This document shows, in pieces, positions 1 through 23,367 of a stretch of DNA of 64,000 nt. Under the pieces are notes generated by a model. That model made no database searches. It had not been told where the DNA came from and saw nothing but the letters and a program-made list of their open reading frames with translations. Source of the DNA: Sphaerisporangium perillae (GTDB lineage Bacteria > Actinomycetota > Actinomycetes > Streptosporangiales > Streptosporangiaceae). The first letter of the stretch is position 1. Every line of letters begins with the position of its first letter. The DNA lies in the NCBI RefSeq assembly GCF_023276435.1, contig NZ_JALLPO010000004.1, positions 1 through 64,000 of the forward strand, written 5' to 3'. Made by a program: the position numbers and the translations under genes.

Positions 1-744
1 GAGTGGACGCTGCGCGCGCTGGAGGCGGGCAAGCACGTGCTGTGCGAGAAGCCACTGGCCGCGAACGCCCGGCAGGCCGAGGAGGTGGCCGCCGCGGCCC
101 GCCGGACCGGCCTGGTCGTCATGGAGGGGATGCACTACCGCCATCACCCGCTCGCCGAGCGGATGCGCGTCCTCGCGCGGGAGGCGCTCGGGCCGATCAT
201 CCACGTGGAGACCGCCAACTGCTGGCCCGTCCCGCGCTTCGACGGTGTCCTGTACGACTACGGGCTCGGCGGTGGCGCCACCATGATCGCCGGATGTTAC
301 GCGATCGACTGCCTGCGCCTGGTCGGCCCAGGCGAGCCGGTGGTGACCGGAGCCCGGGCGCTGCTGCGCGGCCCCGGCGTCGACCGTGCCATGACCGGGG
401 AGTGCGTCTTTCCCGGCGGGGCGACCGGCCGGTTCCGGTGCTCGCTGTGGAGCGCGGCCCGCCCGTCGATATCGGTCCGGGTGACCGGGGAACGCGGCGA
501 GTTGCGGGTGAGCGGCTACCTCATGCCGCAGGTGTTCCACCGCCTGGTCCTGCGCGCCGGCGGCGAGACGCGGCGCGAGCGCGTGCCCGGCGAGCCGACC
601 TACCTCGCCCAGCTCCGGGCGTTCGCCGCAGCCGTCCTCTCGCATGGGCGGGTCCGGACCGGTCCGGAGAACGCGGCGGCGACCCTGCGGCTGATCGACG
701 GCTTCTACCGGCACTCAGGACTGCGCCCGCGCGGGCTCGGCTAG
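1..744 (+). CDS. Gfo/Idh/MocA-type oxidoreductase, partial at the window edge
   Basis: The frame is open from base 1 and ends in TAG at 744, giving 247 residues of the C-terminal part of a Gfo/Idh/MocA-family NAD(P)-dependent oxidoreductase. The family hallmark (A)GKHVLCEKPLA lies at the very start, with the conserved Lys in EKP. MEGMHYRHHP and a GGGATMIAGCYAIDCLR segment follow, as expected of the substrate-binding alpha/beta domain. The N-terminal Rossmann GxGxxG part would lie upstream of the window. The substrate cannot be told. The downstream gene is an acetyltransferase. The same 744 bases recur at 22015-22758, where the 5' part is lost. Confidence 0.85.
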   Translation, partial: EWTLRALEAGKHVLCEKPLAANARQAEEVAAAARRTGLVVMEGMHYRHHPLAERMRVLAREALGPIIHVETANCWPVPRFDGVLYDYGLGGGATMIAGCYAIDCLRLVGPGEPVVTGARALLRGPGVDRAMTGECVFPGGATGRFRCSLWSAARPSISVRVTGERGELRVSGYLMPQVFHRLVLRAGGETRRERVPGEPTYLAQLRAFAAAVLSHGRVRTGPENAAATLRLIDGFYRHSGLRPRGLG

Positions 745-1196
745 CGATAGAGGCTGTTGCGTGCCTGGTCTGTAAACGATCTCGCTGCGTGCGTGTGCAC
801 AGCAAGTCGCTGAGATACTTCGGCCATGGATACGAGTGCGAGGGCGGACGGGATACGGCCAGGTCAGGCGACGTCCAGGACCGGGCCTAGCCATCCCATG
901 GAATGGGCTCTGCGTTCCGCAGAGCCGTCGGATGTCGAGGTGATCGCGGAACTGCGGGCGACGGTGATGCGTCCGGACCTGGAGCGGTTGGGACGGTTCG
1001 ATGAGCATCGGGTCCGGCAGCGGCTGCGGGATTCCTTCTCCCCTCAGCACACGTCGGTCATCGTGGCAGATGGCGCCTTCGCGGGCTGCGTCACTGTGCG
1101 CCCGGCGGAGGACGGGCGGCGGCTGGAGCATTTCTATCTCGTTCCGGGCCTCCAGGGCCGGGGGCTCGGATCGGCTGTGCTGCGAACACTGCTAGA
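1..1196 (+). repeat. Left copy of a 1.2-kb direct repeat
   Basis: Bases 1-1196 match 22015-23210 at a constant offset of 22,014, with only two mismatches seen (1161 G versus 23175 T, 1188 A versus 23202 G). The match stops after the GCTAGA at 1191-1196. The copy holds the 3' part of an oxidoreductase gene and most of an acetyltransferase gene. The window begins inside the repeat, so its left limit is not visible. At its right end it runs directly into a transposase remnant. Confidence 0.97.
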
Positions 1197-1209
1197 GGTG
1201 CCGAGATGA
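898..1209 (+). pseudogene. GNAT acetyltransferase, 3'-truncated copy
   Basis: This matches residues 1 to about 99 of the intact gene at 22912-23367 and then stops: after 1196 the reading runs only three more codons before TGA at 1207-1209. The retained part includes the acetyl-CoA-binding stretch GLQGRGLGSAVL, but the last 50 residues, including the ARRLYERHGF motif, are gone. The break coincides with the end of the direct repeat and the start of an integrase remnant on the other strand. An ATG at 826 is in frame upstream; 898 is preferred because homologous GNATs begin near this point, although neither start has a clear ribosome binding site. Confidence 0.85.
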
Positions 1210-1378
1210 GGGCCCGGTCGGCCTACGACGGCTTGGGCCGGGTGACCTGACGACGCAGTACCGCGAGCTGGTGGCGAGGCATAAGGATCTCGGCGTCCTT
1301 GGAAACGTCCGAGCGTAGGACCAGGGCAAGGGCATCGAGAAGCCGAATGAAGATCAGATAGATCAGTCGTAAAGCCAC
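1201..1378 (-). pseudogene. IS integrase-type transposase, N-terminal remnant
   Basis: Reading the minus strand from a GTG at 1378 gives VALRLIYLIFIRLLDALAL, then LRSDVSKDAEIL, then HQLAVLRRQVTRPKPS, a TAG, and ADRALIS. This is the typical N-terminus of rve-core (IS3/IS481-like) transposases of actinomycetes. The stop codon sits where the family normally has Trp in a PKPSWADRA motif, so it is a nonsense mutation. The remnant is cut at the direct-repeat end. The catalytic core is absent here, while a core fragment of the same family lies at 14667-15235. Bases 1379-1543 hold nothing else that I recognise. Confidence 0.75.
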
Positions 1379-1543
1379 GAACCCGAATCCTGCCGGTCTC
1401 AGGCCGAGTCTGCCCGCGGAACGGGAAACCCCAGGTCACACTCGATGGCCGAAATTCTGGGCACCCACAGGGCCGTGGTCAGGTAGAGGCGTTCTCGGCG
1501 GAAGTCGAGGCTCGCTTGGTGGCGGCGCGTTGATGTGCGCCGG

Positions 1544-2476
1544 TCATGCTTGTTCGTTGGCGCCGTTCGGGGTGGGCCCGGAGCCGGGCTCGGCGCTGTT
1601 CTGCAGGTGCCGGATCATGTCCTGCACGACCGCAGGCGTCCGGGTCTGCCGACGCCGCACCGCGCTCATTGTGACGGCGGTCCGATCGCCGGCGATTGGT
1701 CGGCCGACGATGAGCCCGGCCCACTCCAGCGGATCGCCGCGAACGCTGTAGTCCGGGAGCAGTGCGATGCCGATGCCCTGCGCGACCATCAACTTGCCCA
1801 TCTCGGCGCCGTCTGTGGAATACCACTCGGCAGGCAGATTGGAGCCGAAGAGCCGGTGCGCGAAGCGGTGCATCAGGTAGCCCGCGCGCATGGCGACGAA
1901 GCGTTCCGCGCGCAGCTCGTCCGCGCTCACCTCGGGTTGGGCGGCGAGCGGGTGTGAGGCCGGGATGACGGCCACCGGCCGGCCGGCCAGGAGCGGCGTG
2001 CGCTCCAACTCCGGGGGGACGTCGTCGCCCTCGAGTAGGTTCACCAGTCCGACGTCGAGCGTGCCCTCGGCGAGCATGACGTAGATGTCGTCCTGCTGGA
2101 GGTTGCGAATCTCGACTGTCGAGCCGCGATGCTGGGCATGGAAGGCTTGCAACGCGGGGAGTAGCAGGGTGGCCGTTCCGGCATTGACCGTGCCGACCCG
2201 GAGTAGCCGGCGCGCGGCGAGCTGGTCCCCGGCGGCCGCGCGCAACCGGGCCACCGAATCCAGGACGTCGATGATCGGCTGGAGCAGGTCACGCCCGGCG
2301 TAACTGATCCGCGCCCCGGACCGGTGCCGGTCCAGCAGCGCCACGCCGAGCTCACGCTCCAGCTTGCTGATGGCCTCGCTCAGGGCAGGCAGGGACACGT
2401 GTAGATGCTCGCCGGCGCGGCGCAGTGAGCCGTACGTGCCGACGGCCACTACGTACTCAAGCTGCTCGATTCGCAT
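1544..2476 (-). CDS. LysR-family transcriptional regulator
   Basis: A 310-residue protein. The N-terminal winged helix-turn-helix begins MRIEQLEYVVAVGTYGSLRRAGEHL and is followed by the LysR effector-binding domain (about residues 90-300). I start at ATG 2476, where the family usually starts; a GTG at 2521 would add 15 residues with no family similarity. It is divergent from the sulfur-scavenging operon starting at 2778, with a palindromic, AT-rich site between them (2549-2575). By family practice it is probably an activator of that operon responding to a sulfur metabolite (compare CysB, Cbl, SsuR), but the ligand is inferred from context only. Confidence 0.88.
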   Translation of the reverse strand: MRIEQLEYVVAVGTYGSLRRAGEHLHVSLPALSEAISKLERELGVALLDRHRSGARISYAGRDLLQPIIDVLDSVARLRAAAGDQLAARRLLRVGTVNAGTATLLLPALQAFHAQHRGSTVEIRNLQQDDIYVMLAEGTLDVGLVNLLEGDDVPPELERTPLLAGRPVAVIPASHPLAAQPEVSADELRAERFVAMRAGYLMHRFAHRLFGSNLPAEWYSTDGAEMGKLMVAQGIGIALLPDYSVRGDPLEWAGLIVGRPIAGDRTAVTMSAVRRRQTRTPAVVQDMIRHLQNSAEPGSGPTPNGANEQA

Positions 2477-2548
2477 GAGGCCATCCGTGAACGGTGAAGA
2501 CGGCAGGGCGATATGGAACACCTGCCGGGGCGGGGTTGGGGTAAATAA

Positions 2549-2575: not shown

Positions 2576-2607
2576 AAAAGCGGCCCACTAGAGCGGGAGA
2601 GGAGGTC

Positions 2608-2777: not shown

Positions 2778-4169
2778 ATGTCCACAACTGTACCTATACC
2801 GGCACGTCCGATGCATTTCGCGGCGTTTGTGATGAACACGACCGGCCACATCATCCAAGGCACCTGGCGCCGCCCGACGGCGCGGCAGGCCGACTTCAAC
2901 AACCTCGACCACTGGGTGGGGCTCGCCAGGACCCTGGAGCGGGGGAAATTCGACGCGATCTTCTTCGCCGATGTGGTGGGGCTCTACGCGCCCTACCGCG
3001 GAGACGAGCGCAAGTACTTCGAGGCAGGCCTGCAGGTGCCCAGCAACGACCCGTCGGTGCTGGCCAGTGCAATCGCGTACGTCACCGAGCACCTCGGCAT
3101 CGCGTTCACCGCGTCGATCCTGCAGGAGCACCCGTTCAGCTTCGCCCGCCGCATCTCCACGCTCGACCACGCCAGCAAGGGCCGGATCGCCTGGAACATC
3201 GTCACCAACTACCTGCCGAACGCCTCCCGCAACTTCGGGCTGGCCGGGCTGACCGCGCACGACGAGCGGTACGCCTGGGCCGACGAGTACGTCGACGTGA
3301 CCTACAAGCTCTGGGAAGGCTCGTGGGAGGACGACGCCCTCGTCCAGGATCGGCAGACGGGGATCCACGCCGACTTCGACAAGGTCCACCGGATCAACCA
3401 CGTTGGTCCGCGGTACACGGTCGAAGGGCCGCACTTGGCCAGCCCGTCGCCGCAGCGCACCCCGTTGCTGTTCCAGGCGGGCGCCTCCGAAGCAGGCCGC
3501 ACCTTCGCGGCCAAGAACGCCGAAGCGGTCTTCATCCAATCGCCGAACCTGGCCGCGGCCGCCCGCGACACCGCCGACATCCGCTCGCGCGCCGTCCAGC
3601 ACGGCCGTCGGCCCGACGACATCAAGTTCTTCCAGGGACTCTACGTCGTCGCCGGGTCGACCGAGGAGGAGGCGAAGCGGAAGGCGGCCGAGCTCGACGA
3701 GTGGATCGACTACGACGGCCAGCTGTCGCACATGTCGGGCGCCCTGGGGATCGACTTCGGGCACGAGGACCTCGACACCCCGATCGGCGAGCTGCGAACC
3801 GAGGGGGTGCAGAGCATCGTCGGCTGGATCAAGGACCTGGTCCCCGACCGGCCGGCCACCCTCCGCGACGTCGCGCACTACACCGCCACCAACAGTCGGA
3901 TCGTCGGTACCCCGGAGCAGATCGCCGACGTGCTCGCGCGGTGGCAGGCGGCCGGCGTCGACGGGATCAATCTGGTCAACACGGAGATCCCCAGTTCGTA
4001 CGAGGAGTTCGTCGACCACGTCGTCCCCGTGCTCCAGCGGCGAGGCCTGGCGCAGCGGGAGTACGCCGAGGGCACACTGCGCCACAAGCTTTTCGGCCGA
4101 GGTGACCGGCTGCCCGAGCGCCACCAGGCCACCCGCTACCGAGGCGCGTTCGCGCCGCAGCCCATCTGA
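2778..4169 (+). CDS. NtaA/SnaA/DszA-family FMNH2-dependent monooxygenase
   Basis: A 463-residue cytoplasmic TIM-barrel flavoprotein of the bacterial luciferase-like class, subgroup NtaA/SnaA/DszA/EmoA. Subgroup marks are the start MHFAAFVMNTTGHIIQGTWR, the ARRISTLDHASKGRIAWNIV and NYLPNASRNFG segments, YKLWEGSW and SPQRTPLLFQAG. Relatives oxygenate organosulfur compounds (DszA sulfones) or aminopolycarboxylates (NtaA) with reduced FMN supplied by a partner reductase; one is encoded at 13952. It is first in an operon with a paralogue and a peptide-type ABC importer. The exact substrate is not deducible; an organosulfur compound is favoured by the SfnB- and SsuD-like neighbours. Confidence 0.9.
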   Translation: MSTTVPIPARPMHFAAFVMNTTGHIIQGTWRRPTARQADFNNLDHWVGLARTLERGKFDAIFFADVVGLYAPYRGDERKYFEAGLQVPSNDPSVLASAIAYVTEHLGIAFTASILQEHPFSFARRISTLDHASKGRIAWNIVTNYLPNASRNFGLAGLTAHDERYAWADEYVDVTYKLWEGSWEDDALVQDRQTGIHADFDKVHRINHVGPRYTVEGPHLASPSPQRTPLLFQAGASEAGRTFAAKNAEAVFIQSPNLAAAARDTADIRSRAVQHGRRPDDIKFFQGLYVVAGSTEEEAKRKAAELDEWIDYDGQLSHMSGALGIDFGHEDLDTPIGELRTEGVQSIVGWIKDLVPDRPATLRDVAHYTATNSRIVGTPEQIADVLARWQAAGVDGINLVNTEIPSSYEEFVDHVVPVLQRRGLAQREYAEGTLRHKLFGRGDRLPERHQATRYRGAFAPQPI

Positions 4170-4178
4170 GCGCCGGCC

Positions 4179-5618
4179 ATGAGTGAGAAGAAGCAACTCA
4201 TCCTCAACCTGTTCGAGATGAACTGCGTCGGCCACATCACACACGGGTTGTGGCGGCTGCCGGGCAACAACCGGCAGCGGTTCACGGACATCGAGTACTG
4301 GACCGAGCTCGCCCGGCTACTCGAGTCCGGCGGGTTCGACGCGGTCTTCCTCGCCGACGTGGTCGGGACCTACGACGTCTTCCGAGGTTCGGCGGACGTC
4401 TCGATCCGTGAAGGCCTGCAGATTCCCAACAACGACCCGTTGATGGTCGTACCGGCGATGGCGGCGGTCACCGAGCACCTCGGCTTCGGGATTACGTTCT
4501 CCACGACGTACGAGCCGCCGTTCGCGTGGGCCCGCCGGTTGAGCACCTTGGATCACCTCACCAAGGGACGGGTGGGCTGGAACATCGTCACCTCGTACCT
4601 GCCCAACGCCGCGCGGAACTTCGGGCGGGACGGCGAGGTGGATCACGACACCCGCTTCGAGATCGCCGACGAGTACCTCGACGTCCTCTACAAGCTGTGG
4701 GAGGGCTCGTGGGACGACGACGCGATCGTCGCGGACCGGGATGCCAACCTCTTCGCGGACCCGGCGAAGATCCGTCCGATCGACCACGACGGCACCTGGT
4801 TCAAGGTCGAGGGACCGCATCTGTCGTCGCCGAGCCCGCAGCGGACGCCGTTGCTCTTCACCGCGACCGCGTCGGCTGCCGGGGCGGCGTTCGCCGGCAA
4901 GCACGCCGAGATCGTCTTCACCGGCGGGCCGGACGTCGAGTTCCTGAAGCGGACCATGGCAACCATCCGCAGGGCGGCCACGGACGCCGGGCGCCGGGCG
5001 GACGACATCCGGTTCATCACCACCGCGGGCGTGATCGTGGGACGCACCGAGGAGGAGGCGGCGGCGAAGCTTGCGGAGTTCCAGCGACTGAGCAGCCCCG
5101 AGGGCTACCTGGCGCATGCCGGCTTGACGTTCGACCCGACCGCCTTTCCGCCAACGACCCAGCTCAAAGATGTCGCCGCTGCCACCGGCGACATCGGCCG
5201 CTGGCGCGGCCTCGACTTGGAGCAGACCGTCGGCGAGTTCCTGGCCGGTTTCGGAGACCTGGCCCGGCATGCGCTCTTCGCCGTCGGTACGCCGGAGGTC
5301 GTCGCCGACGCGATCGAGAGCTGGCTCGACGACGTCGGTGTCGACGGCATCAACCTGCTGCAGTACCACTCGTACGGCACCGCCGAGGACTTCATCGAAC
5401 TGGTCGTGCCGGTCCTCCGTGAACGTGGCCGGCTCCGCTCGGCCTACCGCAAGGGCGAGTCGCTGCGCGATCGCATCTTCGGCGCGGGCGATCGCCTGCC
5501 GGAGTGGCACCACGGCTCCCGCTACCGCGGCGGTGTGCACCTCCCCATCACCGTGCACCGCACTTCGCAGAGCGCGTCAGCCATCCAAACACCCGGAGAG
5601 GGACAAGAACAGAGATGA
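4179..5618 (+). CDS. NtaA/SnaA/DszA-family FMNH2-dependent monooxygenase (second paralogue)
   Basis: A 479-residue paralogue of the preceding protein, nine bases downstream of it. It keeps the same landmarks: NLFEMNCVGHITHGLWR, ARRLSTLDHLTKGRVGWNIV, SYLPNAARNFG, YKLWEGSW and SPQRTPLLF. The C-terminal tail is about 30 residues longer and unlike the family. The last codons overlap the ATG of the binding-protein gene (ATGA at 5615-5618), so translation is coupled. Two adjacent DszA-like enzymes suggest either different substrates or successive oxygenations of one imported compound. Confidence 0.9.
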   Translation: MSEKKQLILNLFEMNCVGHITHGLWRLPGNNRQRFTDIEYWTELARLLESGGFDAVFLADVVGTYDVFRGSADVSIREGLQIPNNDPLMVVPAMAAVTEHLGFGITFSTTYEPPFAWARRLSTLDHLTKGRVGWNIVTSYLPNAARNFGRDGEVDHDTRFEIADEYLDVLYKLWEGSWDDDAIVADRDANLFADPAKIRPIDHDGTWFKVEGPHLSSPSPQRTPLLFTATASAAGAAFAGKHAEIVFTGGPDVEFLKRTMATIRRAATDAGRRADDIRFITTAGVIVGRTEEEAAAKLAEFQRLSSPEGYLAHAGLTFDPTAFPPTTQLKDVAAATGDIGRWRGLDLEQTVGEFLAGFGDLARHALFAVGTPEVVADAIESWLDDVGVDGINLLQYHSYGTAEDFIELVVPVLRERGRLRSAYRKGESLRDRIFGAGDRLPEWHHGSRYRGGVHLPITVHRTSQSASAIQTPGEGQEQR

Positions 5619-7261
5619 CCCGATTCACCCGCGCACGACTGGTTGCCGTGGGCAGCGGTGCCCTGCTGTTCAGCTCCCTGCTCGCGGGGTGCGGCGCCGA
5701 TGCCCCCGCCACCGGCGCAGGCGCAGGCACAGGCACCAAGGTCCAGGGCGGCACGATCATCTACGGCCACGAGCAGGAGCCACCCTGCCTCTACGGGGGA
5801 TGGCTCCAGCAGGCGTACATCGATCGCAACATCCTCGACTCGCTGGTGACCGAGGCGGATGACGGATCGATCAAGCCGTGGCTCGCCACGGACTGGAAGG
5901 TGTCGGACGACGGGCTGACGTACACGTTCACGCTGAAGCCGGGGGTGAAGTTCACCGACGGCACGGCGTTGGACGCGCAAGCGGTCGCGGACAACTTCGC
6001 CTATTGGGAGAAGGGCGGCAACAGCACGGCCCAGGTCTCGATCGACCCCTACTTCGCGTCGGCGAAGGCGCTCGACACGACGCACCTCCAGGTGACCCTG
6101 AACAAGCCGTACCTGCCGTTGCTGACGATGCTGACGCAGGGGTACTTCGGGATCCAGTCCCCGACCGCGCTGAAGCGGAGTGACAAAGAGAACTGTGAGC
6201 AGCCGATCGGCTCCGGTGCGTTCAAGGTCAAGGAGTGGAAGCACGGCCAGGAGCTCATCCTGGTCAAAAACCCGGACTACACGTCCTGGCCGGCCACGGC
6301 CAAGCACCAGGGTCCGGCGATCGTCGACGAGGTGGACTGGAAGTTCCTGCTCGACCCGGTCGCACGCTACGCGTCACTGACAACCGGTGAATCAAACGTC
6401 ATCTACGACGTGCCGACGGTCAACTGGAAAGACGCACAGGCGAAGTTCGAGGTGCAGCAGTACATCACCCCGGGCAAGCCGGTCTCGATCTACATGAACA
6501 CGATCAAGGGCGTCTTCACCGACAAGCTGGTCCGTCAGGCGTTCGCGTACGGTGCCGACCGTAAGTCCGCTGTGGAAGCCGGATTCCACGGGGTCATCCC
6601 GTACGAGAACAACCCCTCGGTGAGTCAGTCGACTCCCGGCTACAACCCCGAGGTCGCGAAGGCATACCCGTACGACACGGCCAAGGCCAACCAGCTGCTC
6701 GACCAGGCCGGGTGGACGACGAGGGACTCGGCCGGCTACCGGACGAAGGATGGCAAGCAGCTCGAGGTCCGGTTCGCCTTCCCGGCGGGCTCCGTCATGA
6801 CGGGCGAGGGCTCGACGGTGCTGCAGATCCTGCAGCAGCAGTGGAAGCAGGTCGGCTTCAACGTGGAGCTGATCCCGGAGACGCAGGCGGAGACCTTCTC
6901 CGGCAAGTATTCGTCGCCGGACTCCTACGACGCCCAGCCGTGGTACTGGACGAGCCCGAGCGCCGCGATCCTCTGGATCGTCTGGCGCCCGAGCACCAAG
7001 GACTCTCCCAACTACAACAACTCGTCCTTCTACGACAACGACGAGCTGGGCACGGTGATCCAGCAGGGCAACAGTGCCGCGACCACCGAGGAGGCGAACA
7101 AATTCTACGGGCAGGCCCAGCAGATCATCCAGGACAACGCCGCCGCGGTCGGCCTCTACACCCAGACCAGCTCGATCGCCGTCGCGAAGAACCTGCACGA
7201 CGTCTGGCTGGAGAAGAGCCAGGGCGAGCCGGTGTTCTCGGATGCCTACTTCACCAAGTGA
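5615..7261 (+). CDS. ABC transporter substrate-binding lipoprotein, dipeptide/oligopeptide type (SBP family 5)
   Basis: A 548-residue lipoprotein. The N-terminus has Arg residues, a hydrophobic stretch and the lipobox LLAGC, so Cys is lipidated after signal peptidase II cleavage. The mature part shows SBP_bac_5 features: GGTIIYGHEQEP, the WKVSDDGLTYTFTLKPGVKF motif, and the GADRKSAVEAGFHG region. ATG 5615 is chosen because it overlaps the previous stop and follows GGAGAGGGA at 5595-5603. It precedes two permeases and a double ATPase, a complete DppABCDF-like importer. Within this island the cargo is probably a sulfur compound rather than a peptide (inference). Confidence 0.93.
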   Translation: MTRFTRARLVAVGSGALLFSSLLAGCGADAPATGAGAGTGTKVQGGTIIYGHEQEPPCLYGGWLQQAYIDRNILDSLVTEADDGSIKPWLATDWKVSDDGLTYTFTLKPGVKFTDGTALDAQAVADNFAYWEKGGNSTAQVSIDPYFASAKALDTTHLQVTLNKPYLPLLTMLTQGYFGIQSPTALKRSDKENCEQPIGSGAFKVKEWKHGQELILVKNPDYTSWPATAKHQGPAIVDEVDWKFLLDPVARYASLTTGESNVIYDVPTVNWKDAQAKFEVQQYITPGKPVSIYMNTIKGVFTDKLVRQAFAYGADRKSAVEAGFHGVIPYENNPSVSQSTPGYNPEVAKAYPYDTAKANQLLDQAGWTTRDSAGYRTKDGKQLEVRFAFPAGSVMTGEGSTVLQILQQQWKQVGFNVELIPETQAETFSGKYSSPDSYDAQPWYWTSPSAAILWIVWRPSTKDSPNYNNSSFYDNDELGTVIQQGNSAATTEEANKFYGQAQQIIQDNAAAVGLYTQTSSIAVAKNLHDVWLEKSQGEPVFSDAYFTK

Positions 7262-7268
7262 GGCCGAG

Positions 7269-12785: not shown

Positions 12786-12791
12786 GGCGTG

Positions 12792-14536: not shown

Positions 14537-14666
14537 TTCATGACAGGTCCGTTCAATGCCCTCACTGGCTGCAACGACGACCAGCTGCGGCGAGGGTAGC
14601 CGCCGGGCCCGCACAGCGGTATGAGAGGAAGCGGACCGTGCCGCACGCTTGTGCTGTGCCAGGGGC

Positions 14667-15235: not shown

Positions 15236-15487
15236 TGCGCCGTGAGGCGCTTGTTCTCCGAGCGGGGGTGGAAGACCTCCGACGGTGGGCCGTCGCAGCG
15301 GCCTGCTGAAGCCGAGGGCAGCCTGATCCGGGGAGGTGCACGGGCCGGGTGGGAGCAGCCCTGACAAAGCTCGGACGTGTCGGTACTGCCAGACGGCACG
15401 GGCCGGGCGAGCGAGATAGGACGGTACACGCGAGAAATCAGTGTTGGAAGCCTCGTTATGTAGAGTCGGCCCCAAACCTGGTGGATA

Positions 15488-15945: not shown

Positions 15946-15995
15946 TGGGTGGGGACGAGGATCGCGGGATCTGCCAAGGGTTGTGCTGGGGCCGG

Positions 15996-16496
15996 TCAGC
16001 CGGCCCGCTCTGTCGTACGGGTCACGGGGACGGGGTTCGAGAACAGGTCCAGCACCGGGCAGTGCTCGTCCACGGCCACGGCGAGCCGCTGGTAGCTTTC
16101 CGCGGGCTCGGGCCCGTCCACGGTGACGTGGACGCGTATGGCCGAGAACCCCGGCCGGACGGCGTCGTCGAATCCGAAGAAGCCGCGGATGTCCAGGTCG
16201 CCTTCCACCCGGACGCTGAGCGTGTCGAATGGGATCCCGAGCTGCTCGGCCCAGAACCGGTAGGTGATCGCCTGGCACGAGCCGAGCGCCGCCAGCGCGT
16301 ACTGGACGGGGTTCGCGGCCCGGTCGCCGCCGCCGAGTGCCGGCGGCTCGTCAACGGTGAAAGTGTGCGCCCCGGTGCGGATGTCGACCTCGGTGACGCC
16401 GACCAGCGTTCCGTGCGCGCCGAAGACGAGCTGGGCGCTGGCGGCGTCGTCGGTGACCGCCTTGCGGGTCTCAGCGATGACAGTGTCGAGGGACAT
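15996..16496 (-). CDS. OsmC-family protein
   Basis: A 166-residue OsmC/YhfA-like protein. It has NPVQYALAALGSCQAITY, containing the redox Cys on the first long helix, and EHCPVLDLFSNPVPV, containing the second conserved Cys. Family members reduce hydroperoxides with these thiols, and YhfA-like members are also associated with sulfur metabolism. ATG 16496 is chosen because AAGGAGGAG lies just upstream on the minus strand; an in-frame start 33 bases further upstream lacks this. It is divergent from a truncated sulfhydrylase gene. Confidence 0.92.
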   Translation of the reverse strand: MSLDTVIAETRKAVTDDAASAQLVFGAHGTLVGVTEVDIRTGAHTFTVDEPPALGGGDRAANPVQYALAALGSCQAITYRFWAEQLGIPFDTLSVRVEGDLDIRGFFGFDDAVRPGFSAIRVHVTVDGPEPAESYQRLAVAVDEHCPVLDLFSNPVPVTRTTERAG

Positions 16497-16579
16497 GAGG
16501 GCTCCTCCTTGAGCAGGGCTGATGCTCAATTCTTGGTAATTTAGGTAGGTATTGTCAAGAATTTCGATGTTTCCATATC

Positions 16580-16822
16580 ATGCTGTACGTGGACGATCAC
16601 CAGTGGGGCCTGCGCACCCGTGCGCTGCACGCGGGAGGCCGCCCCGGCCCGGCGACCGGGGCGCGGGCGGTACCCATCTGCCAGGCGACCAGCTTCGTCT
16701 TCGAGGACACCCCCGACGCGGCGGACCCGTTCGCGCTGCAGAAGTACGGCAATATCTACAGCCGCATCGCCAGCCCGGCGGTGGCGGCCTTAATAAAAAC
16801 CTACCAAACAAGTAGGACTTGA
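16580..16822 (+). pseudogene. O-acetylhomoserine sulfhydrylase-like PLP enzyme, N-terminal fragment
   Basis: About 70 residues match the N-terminus of Cys/Met-metabolism PLP enzymes (WGLRTRALHAGGRPGPATGA, VPICQATSFVFEDTPDAAD, LQKYGNIYSRIASPAVAA). After about 16788 the similarity ends abruptly and the sequence turns AT-rich, with ten unrelated codons before the stop. The PLP-lysine and the rest of the roughly 430-residue enzyme are missing. The intact gene would have used released sulfide, in keeping with the island. Confidence 0.85.
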
Positions 16823-16824
16823 CG
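16800..16824 (+). promoter_or_regulatory. Inverted repeat and promoter candidate of the second sulfur unit
   Basis: CCTAC (16800-16804), seven bases and GTAGG (16812-16816) form a perfect inverted repeat. It is followed at 16819-16824 by TTGACG, a plausible -35 element. No strong -10 is visible at 17-18 bp. The stretch is unusually AT-rich. GTAGG half-sites also occur before the OsmC gene (16545-16549) and in the LysR-side palindrome (2570-2574). Confidence 0.45.
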
Positions 16825-16883
16825 GGAATGTCGGGCTGTGTTGAGGTGAACATGTTCACATCGCCCCAGAAAGGCAGCACCTC

Positions 16884-17990
16884 ATGCCCGTCGAGTTTCT
16901 CGGCATCGGCGGGACCAACGACGGCTCCGAAACCTCGCCGCGCTCCGGTCCCTCGTTCGACAAGCAGTACACCCTTCGCCTCGCCCGGGCCCACCAGGAG
17001 TACGGCTGGGATCGCGTGCTGTTCGCCTACGGATCCGGCTCACCCGACCCGGCCCAGGCCGCCGCCTACGTGGCGACGAGAGTCACCGATCTCGACATCC
17101 TTCTCGCCCATCGGCCGAACGTGTCGTACCCGACGTACGCCCTCAAGACGTTCGCCACGCTCGACCAGATCAGCGACGGGAGACTTACCGTCCACTTCAT
17201 CACCGGCGGCAACGACCGTGAGCAGGGCCGCGAGGGTGACTTCCTGACCAAGGACGCTCGGTACTCCCGGACCAGGGAGTACATCCAGATCGTCAAGAAG
17301 GGCTGGACGTCGCGAGAGCCTTTCGACCATGAGGGAGAGCACTACGCCTTCAAGGACTTCGTCTCCGACGTGTTCCCGGTCCAGGAGCCGCGCCCGTCGG
17401 TGTCCTTCGGAGGATCGTCGCCGGCAGCGTACACGGCGGGCGGGGCGGAAGCCGACATCTACGGCCTGTGGGGCGAACCTCTGGCCGACACAGCGCGGCA
17501 GATCGTCTCGATCAAGGAGGCCGCGCTGCGGGCCGGACGTGCGGACGTGCCGAGGATCCAGGTCGCCTTCCGGCCGATCATCGCTTCGACGGAGGAATTG
17601 GCCTGGGAGAAGGCGCAGCGCATCCTCGGCGACCTGCGCCGCGCCGGTACGAGCAAACGACGCCTGTCAGGGCCGCCGGAAAACACGGGATCACAGCGTT
17701 TGCTGGAAGTGGCGGCAAGGGGGGAGCGTCACGACCGCGCGCTGTGGACGCCGACCGCCGCCGCGACCGGCGGTGCGGGCAACTCCAACGCGCTCGTCGG
17801 CACTCCCGAAACCGTAGCCGAAGCGCTGCTGGACTACTACGACCTCGGCGTGGAGATCATCTCCGCGCGTGGTTACGACATCCTCGACGATGCGATCGAC
17901 TTCGGCCGGTACGTGATCCCCTTGGTCCGGGAGGGGGTCGCGGAAAGGGACCGCAACAAGGCAGCCGCACTCAGCTCGGTGGGATCATGA
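16884..17990 (+). CDS. SsuD-like FMNH2-dependent monooxygenase
   Basis: A 368-residue luciferase-like protein, related to SsuD but distinct from the enzyme at 12792. Marks are QYTLRLARAHQEYGWDRVLF, DQISDGRLTVHFITGGND (FMN phosphate loop), VSFGGSSPAAYTAGGAEADI, YGLWGEP, and the C-terminal EIISARGYDILDDAIDFGRY. It starts a unit with a polar-amino-acid-type ABC importer, and its last codons overlap the permease ATG at 17987. The likely role is oxidative release of sulfur from the compound that this importer brings in. Confidence 0.88.
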   Translation: MPVEFLGIGGTNDGSETSPRSGPSFDKQYTLRLARAHQEYGWDRVLFAYGSGSPDPAQAAAYVATRVTDLDILLAHRPNVSYPTYALKTFATLDQISDGRLTVHFITGGNDREQGREGDFLTKDARYSRTREYIQIVKKGWTSREPFDHEGEHYAFKDFVSDVFPVQEPRPSVSFGGSSPAAYTAGGAEADIYGLWGEPLADTARQIVSIKEAALRAGRADVPRIQVAFRPIIASTEELAWEKAQRILGDLRRAGTSKRRLSGPPENTGSQRLLEVAARGERHDRALWTPTAAATGGAGNSNALVGTPETVAEALLDYYDLGVEIISARGYDILDDAIDFGRYVIPLVREGVAERDRNKAAALSSVGS

Positions 17991-18856
17991 CACTCTCCGG
18001 CACTCAGGCGGCGCCGGCCGTTCAGCGAGACGAACCCTCGCTGAGGGTCGTCCCGACCCGTCATCCGCTGCGCTGGGCGGCGACCGCTCTCGCCCTGCTC
18101 CTGTTGGCGATGGCCGCCAACTCGCTCGCCACCAATCCCGCATGGGAATGGGAGGTTGTCGGAGAGTACCTTTTCGCGCCCTCGGTCCTGCGCTCGCTGG
18201 TGCTCACCATGGAGTTGACCGCGCTCGGCATCGTCCTGGGATTCGCCCTGGGAACCGTACTGGCCCTCATGCGCTTGTCTCGCAACCGACTGCTGTCGTC
18301 GGTTGCCTGGGCCTACGTCTGGCTCTTCCGCTCAGTCCCACTGATACTGCAGCTTCTCTTCTGGTACAACCTGGCGCTGCTGTATCCCCGGCTGTCGTTC
18401 GGGGTTCCCTTCGGACCTGGCTTCTTCGACATCGGCACCATGGACCTCATCGGCCCGCTGACCGCCGCCGCCCTCGGTTTGGCGCTGCACCAGGCCGCGT
18501 ATGCCGCCGAGATCGTACGGGGTGGGCTGCTGTCGGTGGATCCCGGCCAGCGGGAGGCCGCGGCGGCACTGGGCATCCCGCGCGCGCGCCGGCTGTTCCG
18601 GATCATCTTGCCGCAGGCGATGCGCACCATCGTGCCGAACGCGGGCAACGAGATCATCGGCCTGGTCAAGGGCACGTCAGTGGTCTACATCATGGCGCTG
18701 CCCGAGTTGTTCTACCAGGTGCAGGTGATCTACATGCGCAACGGCAGAGTGATGGCCCTCCTCTTGGTGGCGGCCGTCTGGTACCTGGTCCTGACCACGG
18801 CGCTGTCGGTCGTGCAGTACTACGTCGAGCGTCACTACGGCAGGGGCCGCTCATGA
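17987..18856 (+). CDS. Amino-acid-type ABC transporter permease (HisM/GlnP family)
   Basis: A 289-residue membrane protein. It has a roughly 30-residue hydrophilic N-terminus, then helices and the family motifs YVWLFRSVPLILQLLFWYN and AAYAAEIVRGGLLSVDPGQREAAAALGI (the EAA loop facing the ATPase), then RIILPQAMRTIVPNAGNEII. A single permease gene is present, so it probably acts as a homodimer. It overlaps both neighbours by ATGA. Confidence 0.93.
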   Translation: MTLSGTQAAPAVQRDEPSLRVVPTRHPLRWAATALALLLLAMAANSLATNPAWEWEVVGEYLFAPSVLRSLVLTMELTALGIVLGFALGTVLALMRLSRNRLLSSVAWAYVWLFRSVPLILQLLFWYNLALLYPRLSFGVPFGPGFFDIGTMDLIGPLTAAALGLALHQAAYAAEIVRGGLLSVDPGQREAAAALGIPRARRLFRIILPQAMRTIVPNAGNEIIGLVKGTSVVYIMALPELFYQVQVIYMRNGRVMALLLVAAVWYLVLTTALSVVQYYVERHYGRGRS

Positions 18857-19614
18857 CAACGATGGTGGAGTTGCGCAACGTGCACAAGAGCTTCGGCCCG
18901 CTGCACGTGCTACGCGGAGTGAGCCTGAGCGTGCGGCGAGGCGAGGTGGCCGTGATCCTCGGCCCATCCGGCTCCGGTAAATCGACGTTGCTCCGCACGA
19001 TCAACCATCTGGAGAAGGTGGAGTCGGGCACGGTCGAGATCGAGGGCGAACTGCTCGGCTACAGACGGTCGGGCGACCGGCTGCACGAACTGCACGAGCG
19101 GGAGATCCTCCGGCAGCGGACGAAGATCGGCTTCGTCTTCCAGAACTTCAACCTCTTCCCGCACCTCACCGTGCGGCAGAACGTCGCCGAGGCGCCGCTC
19201 TCGGCCCAGAAGCGGCCCAAGGCCGAGGTCGACGCCCTGGTGACCCGGCTGCTCGACCGCGTGGGACTGGCGGAGAAGGCCGACGCCTATCCGCGCACCT
19301 TGTCGGGCGGCCAGCAACAGCGCGTCGCCATCGCCCGGGCGCTGGCCCTGGAACCCAAGGTCGTGCTGTTCGACGAGCCGACCTCGGCGCTCGACCCTGA
19401 ACTCGTCGGCGAGGTACTCGAAGTGATGAAGGACCTGGCCCGCACCGGCACGACCATGCTCGTCGTAACCCATGAGATCAGCTTCGCCCGCGAGGTGGCC
19501 GACACCGTCGTCTTCATGGACGCCGGGCAGATCCTCGAACAGGGGCCGCCGCCCCAGGTCCTCGACAGTCCCCGCCACGAACGCACCCGCGCCTTCATCG
19601 GCAAAGTCCTCTGA
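18853..19614 (+). CDS. Amino-acid-type ABC transporter ATP-binding protein (GlnQ family)
   Basis: A 253-residue single-domain ATPase with Walker A GPSGSGKST, Q-loop VFQNFNLFPH, signature LSGGQQQR, Walker B VVLFDEPTSALD and switch His in VVTHE. A short insertion with alternating charges (residues about 72-88) precedes the Q-loop. It works with the permease upstream and the binding lipoprotein downstream. Confidence 0.94.
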   Translation: MTTMVELRNVHKSFGPLHVLRGVSLSVRRGEVAVILGPSGSGKSTLLRTINHLEKVESGTVEIEGELLGYRRSGDRLHELHEREILRQRTKIGFVFQNFNLFPHLTVRQNVAEAPLSAQKRPKAEVDALVTRLLDRVGLAEKADAYPRTLSGGQQQRVAIARALALEPKVVLFDEPTSALDPELVGEVLEVMKDLARTGTTMLVVTHEISFAREVADTVVFMDAGQILEQGPPPQVLDSPRHERTRAFIGKVL

Positions 19615-19628
19615 CGCTAGGAACCCTC

Positions 19629-20618
19629 ATGCGCCTTTCCCCCTGGCGGGCTTCCGTCATGCCCGCACTCCTCCTGGCCGTCGCCGTCGCCGCGTGCGGC
19701 GCCGAGCCGACGGTCGCGGCCAAGGACGCCGCCACGAGCGCCGCGCCCAGCGTGGCCGGCAAAAAGATCAACACCAGTCCCGACCAGAACCGCGTGAGCG
19801 CCGAAAAGGTCGACTCCATCGCCGCACAGGTGCCCGCCGGCATCTCCGCGGATGGCAAGCTCGTCGTCGGCTACAGCGGCGAAGGGGCTCCGCCGCTGAA
19901 CTTCCTCGCGGACGACGACACGACGTTCATCGGCGTGGAGACCGACATCGCCCAACTCGTGGCCGACGTCCTCGGCCTGGAGCTGAAGCCGGAGATCAGC
20001 TCCTGGGAGAACCTCTTCCTGGGCGCGAAGTCCGGAAAGCTGGAGGTCGTCTTCAACAACGTCACCGTGACCGAAGAACGCAAGGACATCTACGACTTCG
20101 CCACCTACCGGGTCGACCAGCTCGCCTGGCAGGTCCCGGCGAACAGCCCGATCAAGGCGATCTCCAAGCCCGCCGACATCGCCGGATTGCGCGTCTCTGT
20201 CGGTGCGGGCACCAACCAGGAAAAGATCCTCCTCGACTGGGACAAACAGAACAAGGAGGCCGGCCTTAAGGACGCCGAGATCCAGTACTACAACAAGTAC
20301 GGCGACGCCCTGCTCGCGCTGAAGTCGGGCCGCATCCAGGCCTACTTCGGGCCGAATCCCGCCATCGCCTACAACATCGCGGTGAGTGGCGATTCTCGGA
20401 TCGTCGGCACTGCCTCGGGCGCGGGCCCTGATCTGCAAGGCCTCATCGCGGCGATGACCAAGAAGGACGACGGCCTGGTCAAGCCCCTCAACGAGGCGCT
20501 CAATACAGTGATCAAGAACGGGAAGTACAAGGAAGTGCTCGACCGCTGGGGCCTGGGCAACGAGGCGATCCCCGAATCACAGATCAACCCGCCGGGCCTG
20601 CCCCGCCAGTCGAGCTGA
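19629..20618 (+). CDS. Polar-amino-acid-type ABC substrate-binding lipoprotein (SBP family 3)
   Basis: A 329-residue lipoprotein with signal sequence and an AVAACG lipobox. The mature domain has GKLVVGYSGEGAPPLNF, TFIGVETDIAQLVADVLGLE, GKLEVVFNNVTVTEERK, and GLRVSVGAGTNQEKIL, the standard SBP_bac_3 layout. It lies 14 bp after the ATPase gene. Family members bind cystine, glutamine and similar polar ligands. Together with the co-transcribed monooxygenase, a sulfur-containing amino acid or sulfonate is the best guess. Confidence 0.92.
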   Translation: MRLSPWRASVMPALLLAVAVAACGAEPTVAAKDAATSAAPSVAGKKINTSPDQNRVSAEKVDSIAAQVPAGISADGKLVVGYSGEGAPPLNFLADDDTTFIGVETDIAQLVADVLGLELKPEISSWENLFLGAKSGKLEVVFNNVTVTEERKDIYDFATYRVDQLAWQVPANSPIKAISKPADIAGLRVSVGAGTNQEKILLDWDKQNKEAGLKDAEIQYYNKYGDALLALKSGRIQAYFGPNPAIAYNIAVSGDSRIVGTASGAGPDLQGLIAAMTKKDDGLVKPLNEALNTVIKNGKYKEVLDRWGLGNEAIPESQINPPGLPRQSS

Positions 20619-20629
20619 CAAGGAAGAAG

Positions 20630-20748
20630 ATGCCGAAGGCGTACGTATGATCACCGCTGCCGACCGGGCCGCGGTCGCGCTCCTCGGTGGGGAACCCGCG
20701 GCGCGCAAACGCACCCGCGGCAAGATCGTGATCGAGGTGACCCCGTGA
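20630..20748 (+). pseudogene. Scar of a quinone-oxidoreductase/zinc-binding dehydrogenase gene (both ends only)
   Basis: After AAGGAAGA a start codon begins MPKAYV, the usual first residues of NADPH:quinone oxidoreductases, and reaches TGA at once. In the other frame from ATG 20647 a 33-residue tail reads ITAADRAAVALLGGEP and ends TRGKIVIEVTP, the usual C-terminus of the same family. Everything between has been lost, with a frameshift. The tail's stop overlaps the GTG of the next gene. Confidence 0.5.
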
Positions 20749-21455
20749 CGCACCCGTTGGACAACCCCGCGTGGGCCTCACTCACCGGGCCGCACGCACA
20801 TCTGGCTGAAGTGCGCGGCGCCGTCCGGCGCTACCCAGCCGACGTGTCTCCCTTCTTGGCGGTCGGAAGCGAGCCGTCGGCGGCCGACTGGGACGACATC
20901 GCCGCGTTCGCGGGCCCAGGCTCCATTGTCTCCGTGGCCGGTGCCACGATCTCGCCCCCGCCCGGCTGGGAGGTGGTACGGGTCGTGCCAGGTGTCCAGA
21001 TGTCGGGCGCCGGAGTGTCCGGCGCACCCGACGAGGAGGCGGTGCGGCTGACCGCGGCCGACGCGCCCGAGATGCTCGACCTCGCCGAACGCACCCAGCC
21101 GGGCCCCTTCCTCCCGCGTACCGTCGAACTCGGTACCTACCTCGGCATCCGCCGCGGCGGCGCACTGGTCGCCATGGCGGGGGAGCGGCTGCACCCGCCC
21201 GGTTGGACAGAGATCAGTGCCGTCTGCACCGAGGCTGCGTTCCGCGGCCAGGGTCTGGCCACCCGACTGGTCCTGGCGGTCGCCGCAGGCATTCGGGCAC
21301 GAGGGGAGATTCCGTTCCTGCACGCCGCGGCGAGCAACACCAACGCGATCCGCCTATACGAGTCGCTCGGCTTCTCCCTGCGGCGCATGACGTCGTTCAA
21401 TGCCCTCCGCGTTCCCGAGGACGAGGTGATCAGTGCGTCTGGCACGCGAGCCTGA
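20745..21455 (+). CDS. GNAT-family N-acetyltransferase (FR47-like C-terminal domain)
   Basis: A 236-residue protein. The N-terminal 110 residues are poorly conserved. The C-terminal half is a GNAT/FR47 fold with LGIRRGGALVAMAGERL, ISAVCTEAAFRGQGLATRLV (the acetyl-CoA pyrophosphate loop RGQGLA) and NAIRLYESLGFSLRR. The GTG start at 20745 overlaps the upstream stop by GTGA. The acetyl acceptor is unknown; detoxification of an amino-bearing sulfur compound is conceivable, but only from position. Confidence 0.88.
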   Translation: MTHPLDNPAWASLTGPHAHLAEVRGAVRRYPADVSPFLAVGSEPSAADWDDIAAFAGPGSIVSVAGATISPPPGWEVVRVVPGVQMSGAGVSGAPDEEAVRLTAADAPEMLDLAERTQPGPFLPRTVELGTYLGIRRGGALVAMAGERLHPPGWTEISAVCTEAAFRGQGLATRLVLAVAAGIRARGEIPFLHAAASNTNAIRLYESLGFSLRRMTSFNALRVPEDEVISASGTRA

Positions 21456-21461
21456 CGGGGG

Positions 21462-21935
21462 GTGAAGGAGCGCAACCTCCTGTCCGGCGAACCCGGCGAA
21501 GGACCGCATGGCCTGTCGGCCGAGGGCTGCGCCTTCCTGGCCGGGCGAAGCGAGGAAACCGATAGGCACAGCACCACGGGCTTCGACGCCGCTGGGCGCC
21601 GCGTGCTCGTCGTCTGCGCGCTCGGCGGGTTCACCACGCTGCTCGACAACTCCGTTCTGAACATCGCCATACCGGCGCTGCGCGGCTCGTTGCACGCGGA
21701 CGCCACCCAGCTGCAGTGGATGGTGGCCGGCTACTCCCTGGCCTTCGGCCTCGCCCTCATCCCTGGCGGCCGCCTCGGCGACGTCCGGGGCGCAAGCCGT
21801 TTTTTCTCGCTGGTATGGCGATCTTCATCGTGGGCGCCGCGATGGCAGGGTCTTCCTCTCACCCTTGGGGGCTCGTAGCGGCGCGCCTGCTGCAGGGGCT
21901 CGGCGGCGGTCTGGTCAACTCCCAGTTCCCGGCGT
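21462..21935 (+). pseudogene. MFS (DHA2-type) drug transporter, N-terminal fragment with frameshift
   Basis: The reading RRVLVVCALGGFTTLLDNS, VLNIAIPALRGSL, QLQWMVAGYSLAFGLALIPG and GRLGDVRG is a classic first part of 14-helix MFS exporters, with motif A GGRLGDVRGRK. At about 21795 a frameshift moves it to the next frame (RKPFFLAGMAIFIVGAAMAG, LVAARLLQGLGGGLVN). Around 21930 the MFS similarity stops and oxidoreductase sequence begins. Only about two to three of 14 helices are present. Confidence 0.85.
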
Positions 21936-21940
21936 CCGGC

Positions 21941-22758
21941 CCGGCTACCAGGCGCTGCTGGAGGACGCGGGCGTGGACGCCGTCTACATCGCGCTGCCGA
22001 ACGCCGCGCATGCTGAGTGGACGCTGCGCGCGCTGGAGGCGGGCAAGCACGTGCTGTGCGAGAAGCCACTGGCCGCGAACGCCCGGCAGGCCGAGGAGGT
22101 GGCCGCCGCGGCCCGCCGGACCGGCCTGGTCGTCATGGAGGGGATGCACTACCGCCATCACCCGCTCGCCGAGCGGATGCGCGTCCTCGCGCGGGAGGCG
22201 CTCGGGCCGATCATCCACGTGGAGACCGCCAACTGCTGGCCCGTCCCGCGCTTCGACGGTGTCCTGTACGACTACGGGCTCGGCGGTGGCGCCACCATGA
22301 TCGCCGGATGTTACGCGATCGACTGCCTGCGCCTGGTCGGCCCAGGCGAGCCGGTGGTGACCGGAGCCCGGGCGCTGCTGCGCGGCCCCGGCGTCGACCG
22401 TGCCATGACCGGGGAGTGCGTCTTTCCCGGCGGGGCGACCGGCCGGTTCCGGTGCTCGCTGTGGAGCGCGGCCCGCCCGTCGATATCGGTCCGGGTGACC
22501 GGGGAACGCGGCGAGTTGCGGGTGAGCGGCTACCTCATGCCGCAGGTGTTCCACCGCCTGGTCCTGCGCGCCGGCGGCGAGACGCGGCGCGAGCGCGTGC
22601 CCGGCGAGCCGACCTACCTCGCCCAGCTCCGGGCGTTCGCCGCAGCCGTCCTCTCGCATGGGCGGGTCCGGACCGGTCCGGAGAACGCGGCGGCGACCCT
22701 GCGGCTGATCGACGGCTTCTACCGGCACTCAGGACTGCGCCCGCGCGGGCTCGGCTAG
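21941..22758 (+). pseudogene. Gfo/Idh/MocA-type oxidoreductase, 5'-truncated copy
   Basis: From about GYQALLEDAGVDAVYIALPN onward this is the same protein as at 1-744, but the N-terminal Rossmann GxGxxG segment is replaced by MFS sequence. About 25 more oxidoreductase residues are visible here than in the left copy, which the window edge cuts. With neither its start nor its NAD-binding loop this copy should be non-functional. Confidence 0.85.
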
Positions 22759-23210
22759 CGATAGAGGCTGTTGCGTGCCTGGTCTGTAAACGATCTCGCT
22801 GCGTGCGTGTGCACAGCAAGTCGCTGAGATACTTCGGCCATGGATACGAGTGCGAGGGCGGACGGGATACGGCCAGGTCAGGCGACGTCCAGGACCGGGC
22901 CTAGCCATCCCATGGAATGGGCTCTGCGTTCCGCAGAGCCGTCGGATGTCGAGGTGATCGCGGAACTGCGGGCGACGGTGATGCGTCCGGACCTGGAGCG
23001 GTTGGGACGGTTCGATGAGCATCGGGTCCGGCAGCGGCTGCGGGATTCCTTCTCCCCTCAGCACACGTCGGTCATCGTGGCAGATGGCGCCTTCGCGGGC
23101 TGCGTCACTGTGCGCCCGGCGGAGGACGGGCGGCGGCTGGAGCATTTCTATCTCGTTCCGGGCCTCCAGGGCCGTGGGCTCGGATCGGCTGTGCTGCGAA
23201 CGCTGCTAGA
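22015..23210 (+). repeat. Right copy of the 1.2-kb direct repeat
   Basis: This is 22,014 bases downstream of the left copy and matches it except at 23175 and 23202. It continues into an intact 3' end of the acetyltransferase gene, while its 5' side joins an MFS fragment about 80 bases earlier. Together the copies flank about 20.8 kb of unique DNA. Confidence 0.97.
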
Positions 23211-23367
23211 ACGGTCGGATTCCGACGGCATGCCGGTTCGCCTGAATGTCCTGCGGGGCAGCGCCGCCCGGCGGCTCTACGAGCGCCACGGGTTCACCGT
23301 TGAGGATCAGGACCCGATCGACGTCTACATGGTGCGGCGGCCGGGTGGGGGCGCCGTCGGAACGTGA
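22912..23367 (+). CDS. GNAT-family N-acetyltransferase (intact copy)
   Basis: A 151-residue protein: beta-strand start WALRSAEPSDVEVIAELRA, then HFYLVPGLQGRGLGSAVL carrying the acetyl-CoA loop, then RLNVLRGSAARRLYERHGF and EDQDPIDVYMVR at the C-terminus. Full length for a small GNAT. An in-frame ATG at 22840 would add 24 residues without family similarity. The truncated sister is at 898-1209. The substrate is unknown. Confidence 0.85.
   Translation: MEWALRSAEPSDVEVIAELRATVMRPDLERLGRFDEHRVRQRLRDSFSPQHTSVIVADGAFAGCVTVRPAEDGRRLEHFYLVPGLQGRGLGSAVLRTLLERSDSDGMPVRLNVLRGSAARRLYERHGFTVEDQDPIDVYMVRRPGGGAVGT

Follow-up and report, generated by a model that had tools for sequence, protein, structure and literature searches.

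The window analyzed here is a 64,000-nucleotide stretch of the Sphaerisporangium perillae genome, and near its left end a 20,728-bp insert (1197–21924) lies between two direct copies of a segment encoding a Gfo/Idh/MocA oxidoreductase and an acetyltransferase. Beyond an IS remnant at its left end (1198–1471), the insert carries a LysR-family regulator, assigned by family match (1544–2521, minus strand), followed on the plus strand by two NtaA/DmoA-family FMN monooxygenases (2778–4169 and 4179–5618), an Opp/Dpp/Nik-type ABC importer comprising a binding protein, two permeases and a fused double ATPase (5618–10812), two SfnB/DszC-like genes in a single frame (10809–12785), an SsuD-like alkanesulfonate monooxygenase that scores under the curated equivalog cut-offs (12789–13955), and a flavin reductase (13952–14536). 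The fused frame 10809–12785 passes the cut-off of the SfnB family (TIGR04022) with 659.4 versus 430.9 bits, two stretches being summed; its second gene matches nearly the whole SfnB model, and its first, compared with L057, is 434 bp shorter owing to a gap at 11440. A decayed transposase remnant (14649–15309, plus strand), in which an rve_3 match is confined to 14989–15309, precedes a second module (15996–21455) with OsmC-like, SsuD-like monooxygenase and GNAT genes and an amino-acid-type ABC importer (permease, ATPase, binding protein). This cargo is partly decayed, and the operon is predicted to serve sulfonate/sulfone-type sulfur scavenging. It is reminiscent of sfn/dsz/ssu-type clusters such as the Gordonia sfnB region, which likewise combine SfnB/DszC-like flavoenzymes with LLM-class monooxygenases (PMC9861168, PMC11852219), but it differs from the Gordonia region, as far as the available parts of those reports describe it, in having a LysR regulator, two NtaA/DmoA-family enzymes, an Opp/Nik-type importer and one broken SfnB-like gene.

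Positions 1–1196 and 22015–23210 align without gaps at 99.83% identity, with two mismatches at 1161 (G/T) and 1188 (A/G), which bears out the 1,196-bp repeat described in an initial annotation of this DNA. The left copy (1–1196, plus strand) holds the 3' part of the oxidoreductase (stop at 744) and an acetyltransferase that lacks its 3' end, its frame ending abruptly at 1196/1197. The right copy holds an oxidoreductase without its 5' end (stop at 22758) and the start, at 22840, of an acetyltransferase whose open reading frame is whole (GNAT, 175 aa; 22840–23367, plus strand), so the reported contrast between a 3'-cut left and an intact right acetyltransferase is correct. Base 1 of the window coincides with the start of contig C55 and falls inside the left repeat copy; the left oxidoreductase truncation therefore stems from the contig end and should be annotated as such, not as a biological cut. 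Contig C50 seems to hold the leftward continuation of the left copy: its last 900 bp, read on the minus strand, are identical to C55:1–900, and it carries the upstream part of the repeat and an uninterrupted oxidoreductase. We infer that C50 and C55 are neighbors; provided that they join, the oxidoreductase on the left side is complete, which the initial annotation had anticipated. With C50 added, the full repeat (21925–23210 in the right copy, plus strand) measures 1,286 bp and contains three mismatches overall, the third at 22014 (T in C55, C in C50).

These mismatches are confined to the two ends of the repeat, within its outermost 90 and 36 bp, and leave a 1,160-bp core without any; given three randomly placed differences, a core this long has a simulated probability of 0.0036. 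Either the middle was homogenized or the assembler collapsed it. Judged by its length, a near-identical 1.3-kb repeat lies far beyond chance. Dating the insertion by repeat identity was considered and rejected: since the copies differ only at the repeat ends, percent identity provides no clock for the event. All three differences are at third positions and synonymous (synonymous fraction 0.278, cubed ~0.02), and at 1161 the truncated left copy carries the allele common to all five relatives compared. Such a pattern mildly suggests that the donor fragment came from a sister strain, although synonymous changes would be expected anyway if the differences arose in the intact copies.

The contig ends raise the question of assembly topology. 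Writing R for the repeat, I for the insert and A and B for the flanks, the graph reads A(C50)-R, I-R, R-I, R-B, and the contig may join the wrong flanks: the genome could hold an intact A-R-B locus together with R-I as a circle of its own, or C50 could end in a third copy of the repeat, and a free circle of 22,014 bp would yield the same graph. Both contigs indeed break within the repeat, C55 beginning one base past the mismatch at 22014, and the identical core would be hard to phase if the reads were short. A search for C50/C55 synteny in congeners also gave scattered matches only, with no match for C50 in congener stretches of 400 kb and 200 kb to which parts of C55 do align, and with two further C50 stretches matching at scattered positions. 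We nevertheless regard a misjoined topology as quite unlikely, given that I-R-B is assembled through in one contig, that a circle devoid of a recognizable replication gene would hardly persist, and that the exact 900-bp dovetail, in the right orientation, favors one shared copy.

Because a 7.5-kb piece of the insert has no close copy in any of ten congeners and the nearest relatives of the sulfur operon belong to other genera, we read the insert as apparently foreign. Composition helps little: the GC content of the insert is 0.682 versus 0.698–0.737 across eleven stretches of C50 and C55, and parts of the right flank at 24–28 kb are as GC-poor as parts of the insert. Codon composition was rejected as a mark of foreign origin, as GC3 does not separate insert genes (0.815–0.916) from host genes (0.778–0.949), the ranges overlapping.

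Among 340 other genomes of the family searched with positions 22300–23367, no empty site was seen. The query found a match in 35 of them, and in none of the 35 does the match reach the oxidoreductase coding sequence proper, homology beginning at the final base of its stop codon or later; at the cut-off used (1e-60, two candidates scored per genome) a weakly similar adjoining oxidoreductase would be missed. Five acetyltransferase loci inspected with ~7–11 kb of flank on either side had no oxidoreductase match alongside, and it is solely for these five that the absence of an adjoining oxidoreductase is firm. Likewise, queries with the right repeat plus flank and with the C50 end revealed no empty site among the matches listed for 59 relatives, so the comparison with close relatives proposed in the initial annotation did not turn one up. 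That annotation had also held that finding the island in relatives, but with no repeats around it, would refute the proposed integration. This is literally the case for the sulfur operon: of 80 related loci fetched, eight were tested, and all eight lack the repeat sequence in the compared stretch. Since these loci lie in other genera and at other sites, their lack of the repeat indicates that the repeats are derived from the target and does not refute an insertion.

Both joints between insert and host are non-homologous, with 0–1 bp of microhomology. At the left joint, J1 (1196/1197), the acetyltransferase runs into a piece from within an IS transposase gene. This remnant (1198–1471) is 93% identical to contig C32:126979–127252, the rest of the element being absent beyond J1; there is no microhomology, and base 1197 (G) corresponds to neither available parent. 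At the right joint, J2 (21924/21925), an MFS transporter gene meets the oxidoreductase with 1 bp of microhomology, the G at 21925 being common to both parents. The MFS gene is represented by its 5' part (21462–21925, plus strand), which has 84% DNA identity to an uninterrupted homologue in G019 and is frameshifted relative to it; the right oxidoreductase is thus cut by an MFS fragment, as first noted, and the fragment carries a frameshift besides. The genome contains one Ku-family match, and joints of low or no homology in a Ku-bearing host are consistent with non-homologous end joining (NHEJ).

The two transposase remnants, at 1198–1471 and 14649–15309, could recall a self-mobile element bounded by the repeats, be it an integrase-type island, a composite transposon or an IS-driven translocatable unit, and large circles generated with the help of an IS transposase do exist (PMC6350997). 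We find such an origin highly improbable. The repeat consists of oxidoreductase and acetyltransferase sequence rather than an IS, and is absent from the eight operon loci mentioned above; no complete IS is present at the ends or in the unit, and the right joint sets MFS against oxidoreductase. Integrase-type genomic islands and ICEs carry a site-specific integrase and often sit at a tRNA, whereas the window yielded no tRNA, the scanned frames of the insert contain no site-specific recombinase family, and their sole integrase-core match is a transposase remnant. An IS-mediated origin was specifically rejected, given that J1 falls inside the IS element rather than at its end.

The locus is most likely the product of an illegitimate insertion with a flanking duplication. 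In Campbell integration, a segment is repeated directly around the insert, with one copy truncated at its 5' end and the other at its 3' end. Here, direct repeats of the homologous segment surround the insert, and the whole target locus is kept across the two copies if C50 joins C55. Our tentative preference, which we put a little short of an even chance, is for a circle made by NHEJ and then integrated by a single crossover. A 20.7-kb foreign segment with the sulfonate/sulfone-type operon on it would have been end-joined to the 1,286-bp oxidoreductase-acetyltransferase stretch, originating from the resident actinomycete or a sister strain, to form a circle of 22,014 bp; a RecA-type single crossover would then have inserted this circle into the resident locus, so that the host stretch came to lie on each side and both host genes stayed whole. 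We favor the circle because the truncations are complementary, the repeats are 99.8% identical and C50 overlaps with an uninterrupted oxidoreductase; because the joints sit within transposase and MFS genes, show 0–1 bp of overlap and occur beside a Ku gene; and because neither host gene is lost if C50 joins C55. We infer all three steps: the intermediate circle, its crossover and the reversal.

Several observations speak against a circle. No plasmid record carrying the region was found: 80% coverage of the region is reached nowhere, the best-ranked match covers 5%, and only partial or distant matches appear among the best 20 listed per search, five plasmid records with best matches of 95–99% identity lying outside those 20. 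The insert stretches used as queries (9000–16500 and 14500–21924) occur just once in the draft, and replication and relaxase/mobilization/transfer families, like the recombinases, are absent from the scanned frames. Uniform divergence between strains leaves the end-clustering of the three differences unexplained, and the 35 matched family genomes yield no empty site. Finally, a circle requires two illegitimate joins plus a crossover, and direct insertion just the two joins.

Of the single-crossover integration initially proposed, the repeats and complementary truncations stand, the circular donor was not found, and the map fits a crossover with a circle but not uniquely, because end joining of the insert between sister chromosomes, or into a duplication that existed beforehand, produces an identical map. 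In that scheme, the foreign segment would be ligated, with no circle, between two broken chromosome arms, the left broken in the acetyltransferase and the right, belonging to a sister chromosome or to a duplication already present, in the oxidoreductase, and the 1,286-bp overlap of the arms would become the flanking repeat. We consider direct insertion possible but less likely than the circle. It accounts for the same two joints in one step fewer; the 0–1 bp microhomology and the unmatched base at J1 resemble NHEJ scars in Streptomyces (PMC5869714); the Ku match fits as well; and for Streptococcus pneumoniae duplications, DNA integration across sister chromatids, with RecA homologous pairing, is a model that has been put forward and tested (PMC3784515). 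However, it demands that two copies of the chromosome break at points ~1.3 kb from each other and that both are joined to the same fragment, and a fragment from a donor strain accounts slightly better for the allele pattern.

Parts of either route have precedents. When E. coli received a linearized plasmid, the diagnostic product of a partial duplication was obtained from 56 of 60 Lac- clones; sequencing confirmed the duplication in 14 clones, and it was credited to re-circularized molecules that integrated by a single crossover (PMC3240628). Our locus shares with Campbell integrants and these duplications the direct repeats around the insert and the absence of net target loss; the sequenced E. 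coli duplications, as given in the available text, span 109–950 bp and involve a laboratory plasmid (PMC3240628), whereas the insert here has no recognizable replicon and no donor circle was observed. Sites of double-strand-break healing in Streptomyces ambofaciens contained five insertions that ranged in size from 30 bp to 18.8 kb, some NHEJ scars carrying one non-templated nucleotide (PMC5869714). The actinomycete host, the scars with small additions or microhomologies and insertion sizes of up to 18.8 kb are similar to ours, but those inserts are endogenous, and foreign DNA within a 1.3-kb direct repeat is not described in the accessible parts of that report (PMC5869714). Homology-facilitated illegitimate recombination also brings in a foreign piece through at least one illegitimate junction, but has one homologous end (PMC3240628, PMC5361080), and one-sided insertion of this kind is generally seen with a host deletion of similar size (PMC3240628). 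Here, both ends are illegitimate with respect to the insert and, if C50 joins C55, neither host gene is apparently lost.

Whichever route led to it, homologous recombination between the repeats is predicted to reverse the insertion. The map gives a 22,014-bp deletion that leaves one whole locus, in line with the restoration foreseen in the initial annotation; instability of the trait is accordingly a prediction, and its suggested mobility draws no support beyond the repeats. A more general notion, that horizontally acquired operons enter Ku-bearing actinomycetes by end joining between sister-chromosome arms, strikes us as improbable; if true, target duplication would be automatic and acquisition reversible by RecA, allowing trial insertion without a mobile element, site specificity or host gene loss. 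We describe a natural case in which a large, apparently foreign operon lies within a long direct host repeat, with illegitimate joints, in a Ku-bearing organism. Such cases could test whether bacterial NHEJ aids horizontal gene acquisition, an idea raised for Streptomyces (PMC5869714), and whether insertions of this kind are lost by homologous recombination.

We find that positions 1-1196 and 22015-23210 are identical except for two mismatches. Each copy covers the 3' part of a Gfo/Idh/MocA oxidoreductase gene and, after it, the 5' part of a GNAT acetyltransferase gene. The acetyltransferase match stops at 1196 in the left copy, and the gene is whole in the right copy, running to 23367. The window covers bases 1-64,000 of C55, a 278,649-bp contig of a 9.30-Mb, 120-contig draft genome, and its left end is a contig break. 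When window 1-1300 was compared with the draft, three near-identical places were found: C55:1, C55:22015 and C50:1-900 (minus strand) on another contig. The first 900 bases of C55 are the exact end of C50(-), and C50 matches 21925-22914 with one mismatch, at 22014. Because this match runs from 21925, the full repeat measures 1,286 bp (21925-23210); the initial annotation was right about flanking repeats and slightly understated them. C55 starts one base past the 22014 difference, as expected if the repeat collapsed. If C50 and C55 are neighbours, as their exact overlap and orientation would have it, the left oxidoreductase is intact as predicted, since its frame continues uninterrupted upstream on C50(-). 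Comparing the two contigs with congeners gave scattered hits. Translations of C50:1-20000 read as SDR, NDP-sugar, glycosyltransferase, P450 and O-methyltransferase-like frames at the contig start, looking like a possible secondary-metabolite cluster adjoining the insertion site.

The repeat sequence was absent from all eight sulfur-operon loci compared (of 80 fetched; in the stretch examined per locus), so the repeats are part of the target, not cargo. Between them lies an insert of 20,728 bp (1197-21924). At its left joint (1196/1197), the acetyltransferase gene is fused to 274 bp of an insertion sequence (IS) whose homology in two other genomes (G011 and G032) runs far past the end of the window copy, placing the joint inside the element; base 1197 matches neither parent available. 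A related IS at C32:126959-128099 (L012 8960-10100), on a further contig, also appears truncated from its translation, at the opposite end of the transposase frame, and gives only weak HTH matches in Pfam. At the right joint (21924/21925), an MFS gene, uninterrupted in G019, is fused to the oxidoreductase gene with one base common to both. Neither joint resembles a product of homologous or site-specific recombination; both have the look of end joining. A Ku search gave one match in this genome and also matched 1 of 14 control genomes. Scanning 20 insert frames, plus further ones, revealed no relaxase, replication or site-specific recombinase families, the sole integrase-core match being a transposase remnant; the window holds no tRNA, and no plasmid record covers the region among the matches listed.

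One break repaired with the insert would be unable to duplicate 1,286 bp of target. Either two chromosome arms from different locus copies were joined directly to the insert, or the resident locus recombined by crossover with a circle bearing insert and repeat, duplicating the target; the same two illegitimate joins are needed by both. By judgement we lean tentatively toward the circle, at somewhat short of an even chance, and hold direct insertion possible at a lower probability. The circle route has a direct precedent in E. coli, where section 12 of PMC3240628 reports a product diagnostic of partial duplication in 56/60 clones, ascribed to donor DNA that had re-circularised and integrated by a single crossover. 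In Streptomyces, five insertions, ranging in size from 30 bp up to 18.8 kb, are described at healed breaks (PMC5869714), and work on pneumococcus proposed and tested interchromatid integration (PMC3784515). Of the single-crossover integration first proposed, insertion with duplication is well supported; the circle stands as one of two good routes rather than the sole one.

All three differences between the copies are synonymous, third-position changes. At 1161, the left (truncated) copy has the base of all five relatives compared and the right (intact) copy a derived one; at 1188, relatives have A (two), G (two) or C (one). This pattern is a slight hint of a fragment derived from a sister strain. 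Against it, two changes can be read as tolerated in the right gene, which is intact, and the differences all fall within 90 bp of one repeat end or 36 bp of the other (0.0036 in simulation), a placement that speaks for homogenisation, or assembly collapse, of the repeat middle.

A search with 22300-23367 (cut-off 1e-60; 341 genomes including this one) matched 35 of the 340 others, none extending upstream past the last base of the oxidoreductase stop codon, and five such loci viewed with several kilobases each side lacked an oxidoreductase of this kind. Elsewhere, then, the acetyltransferase lies in other surroundings, and the empty site sought in relatives was unavailable among these 340 genomes. 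In the closest matches from other family genomes, acetyltransferase homology begins at the oxidoreductase stop or slightly downstream of it (window 22758-22791), so the pairing of oxidoreductase and acetyltransferase may be a recent joint in its own right, predating the duplication.

GC content is 0.682 in the insert, 0.714-0.716 in the repeat, 0.720 in the right flank and 0.698-0.737 in eleven C50/C55 stretches. The GC3 ranges of insert genes (0.815-0.916) and of the small set of host genes measured (0.778-0.949) overlap, so base composition does not by itself prove foreign origin. Ten congeners contain no close copy of a 7.5-kb piece (9000-16500): identity is 69-74% in the longest matches and rises to 79% in a transposase match of 567 bp.

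The insert carries a conserved operon (~1.6-14.5 kb) encoding a LysR regulator, two NtaA/DmoA-family FMN monooxygenases, an Opp/Nik-type importer, SfnB/DszC-like enzymes, an SsuD-like enzyme and a flavin reductase. Behind it, a second module adds a further SsuD-like enzyme and an importer of the amino-acid type. Seven loci have a multi-gene operon match, with matched pieces at ~72-83% DNA identity. The two monooxygenases (2778-5618) are tandem paralogues, at 72% DNA identity over ~400 bp. Closest relatives of the first are Marmoricola, Nocardioides, Frankia, Paractinoplanes, Dactylosporangium and Gordonia records; its best solved relatives by sequence are hexachlorobenzene dehalogenase, alkane monooxygenase and dimethyl-sulfide monooxygenase, with dibenzothiophene desulfurization enzyme A more distant. 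Parts of the cargo have decayed. Compared with L057, a related locus, the first SfnB-like gene is 434 bp short at 11440, where one base overlaps across the deletion joint; a second transposase is fragmented; and the MFS gene carries a frameshift and is truncated. A single frame (10809-12785) joins the N-terminal part of an SfnB/DszC-like gene to a nearly full-length second SfnB.

Instability of the insert is a fair prediction, and the locus is an instructive yet ordinary outcome of illegitimate recombination.
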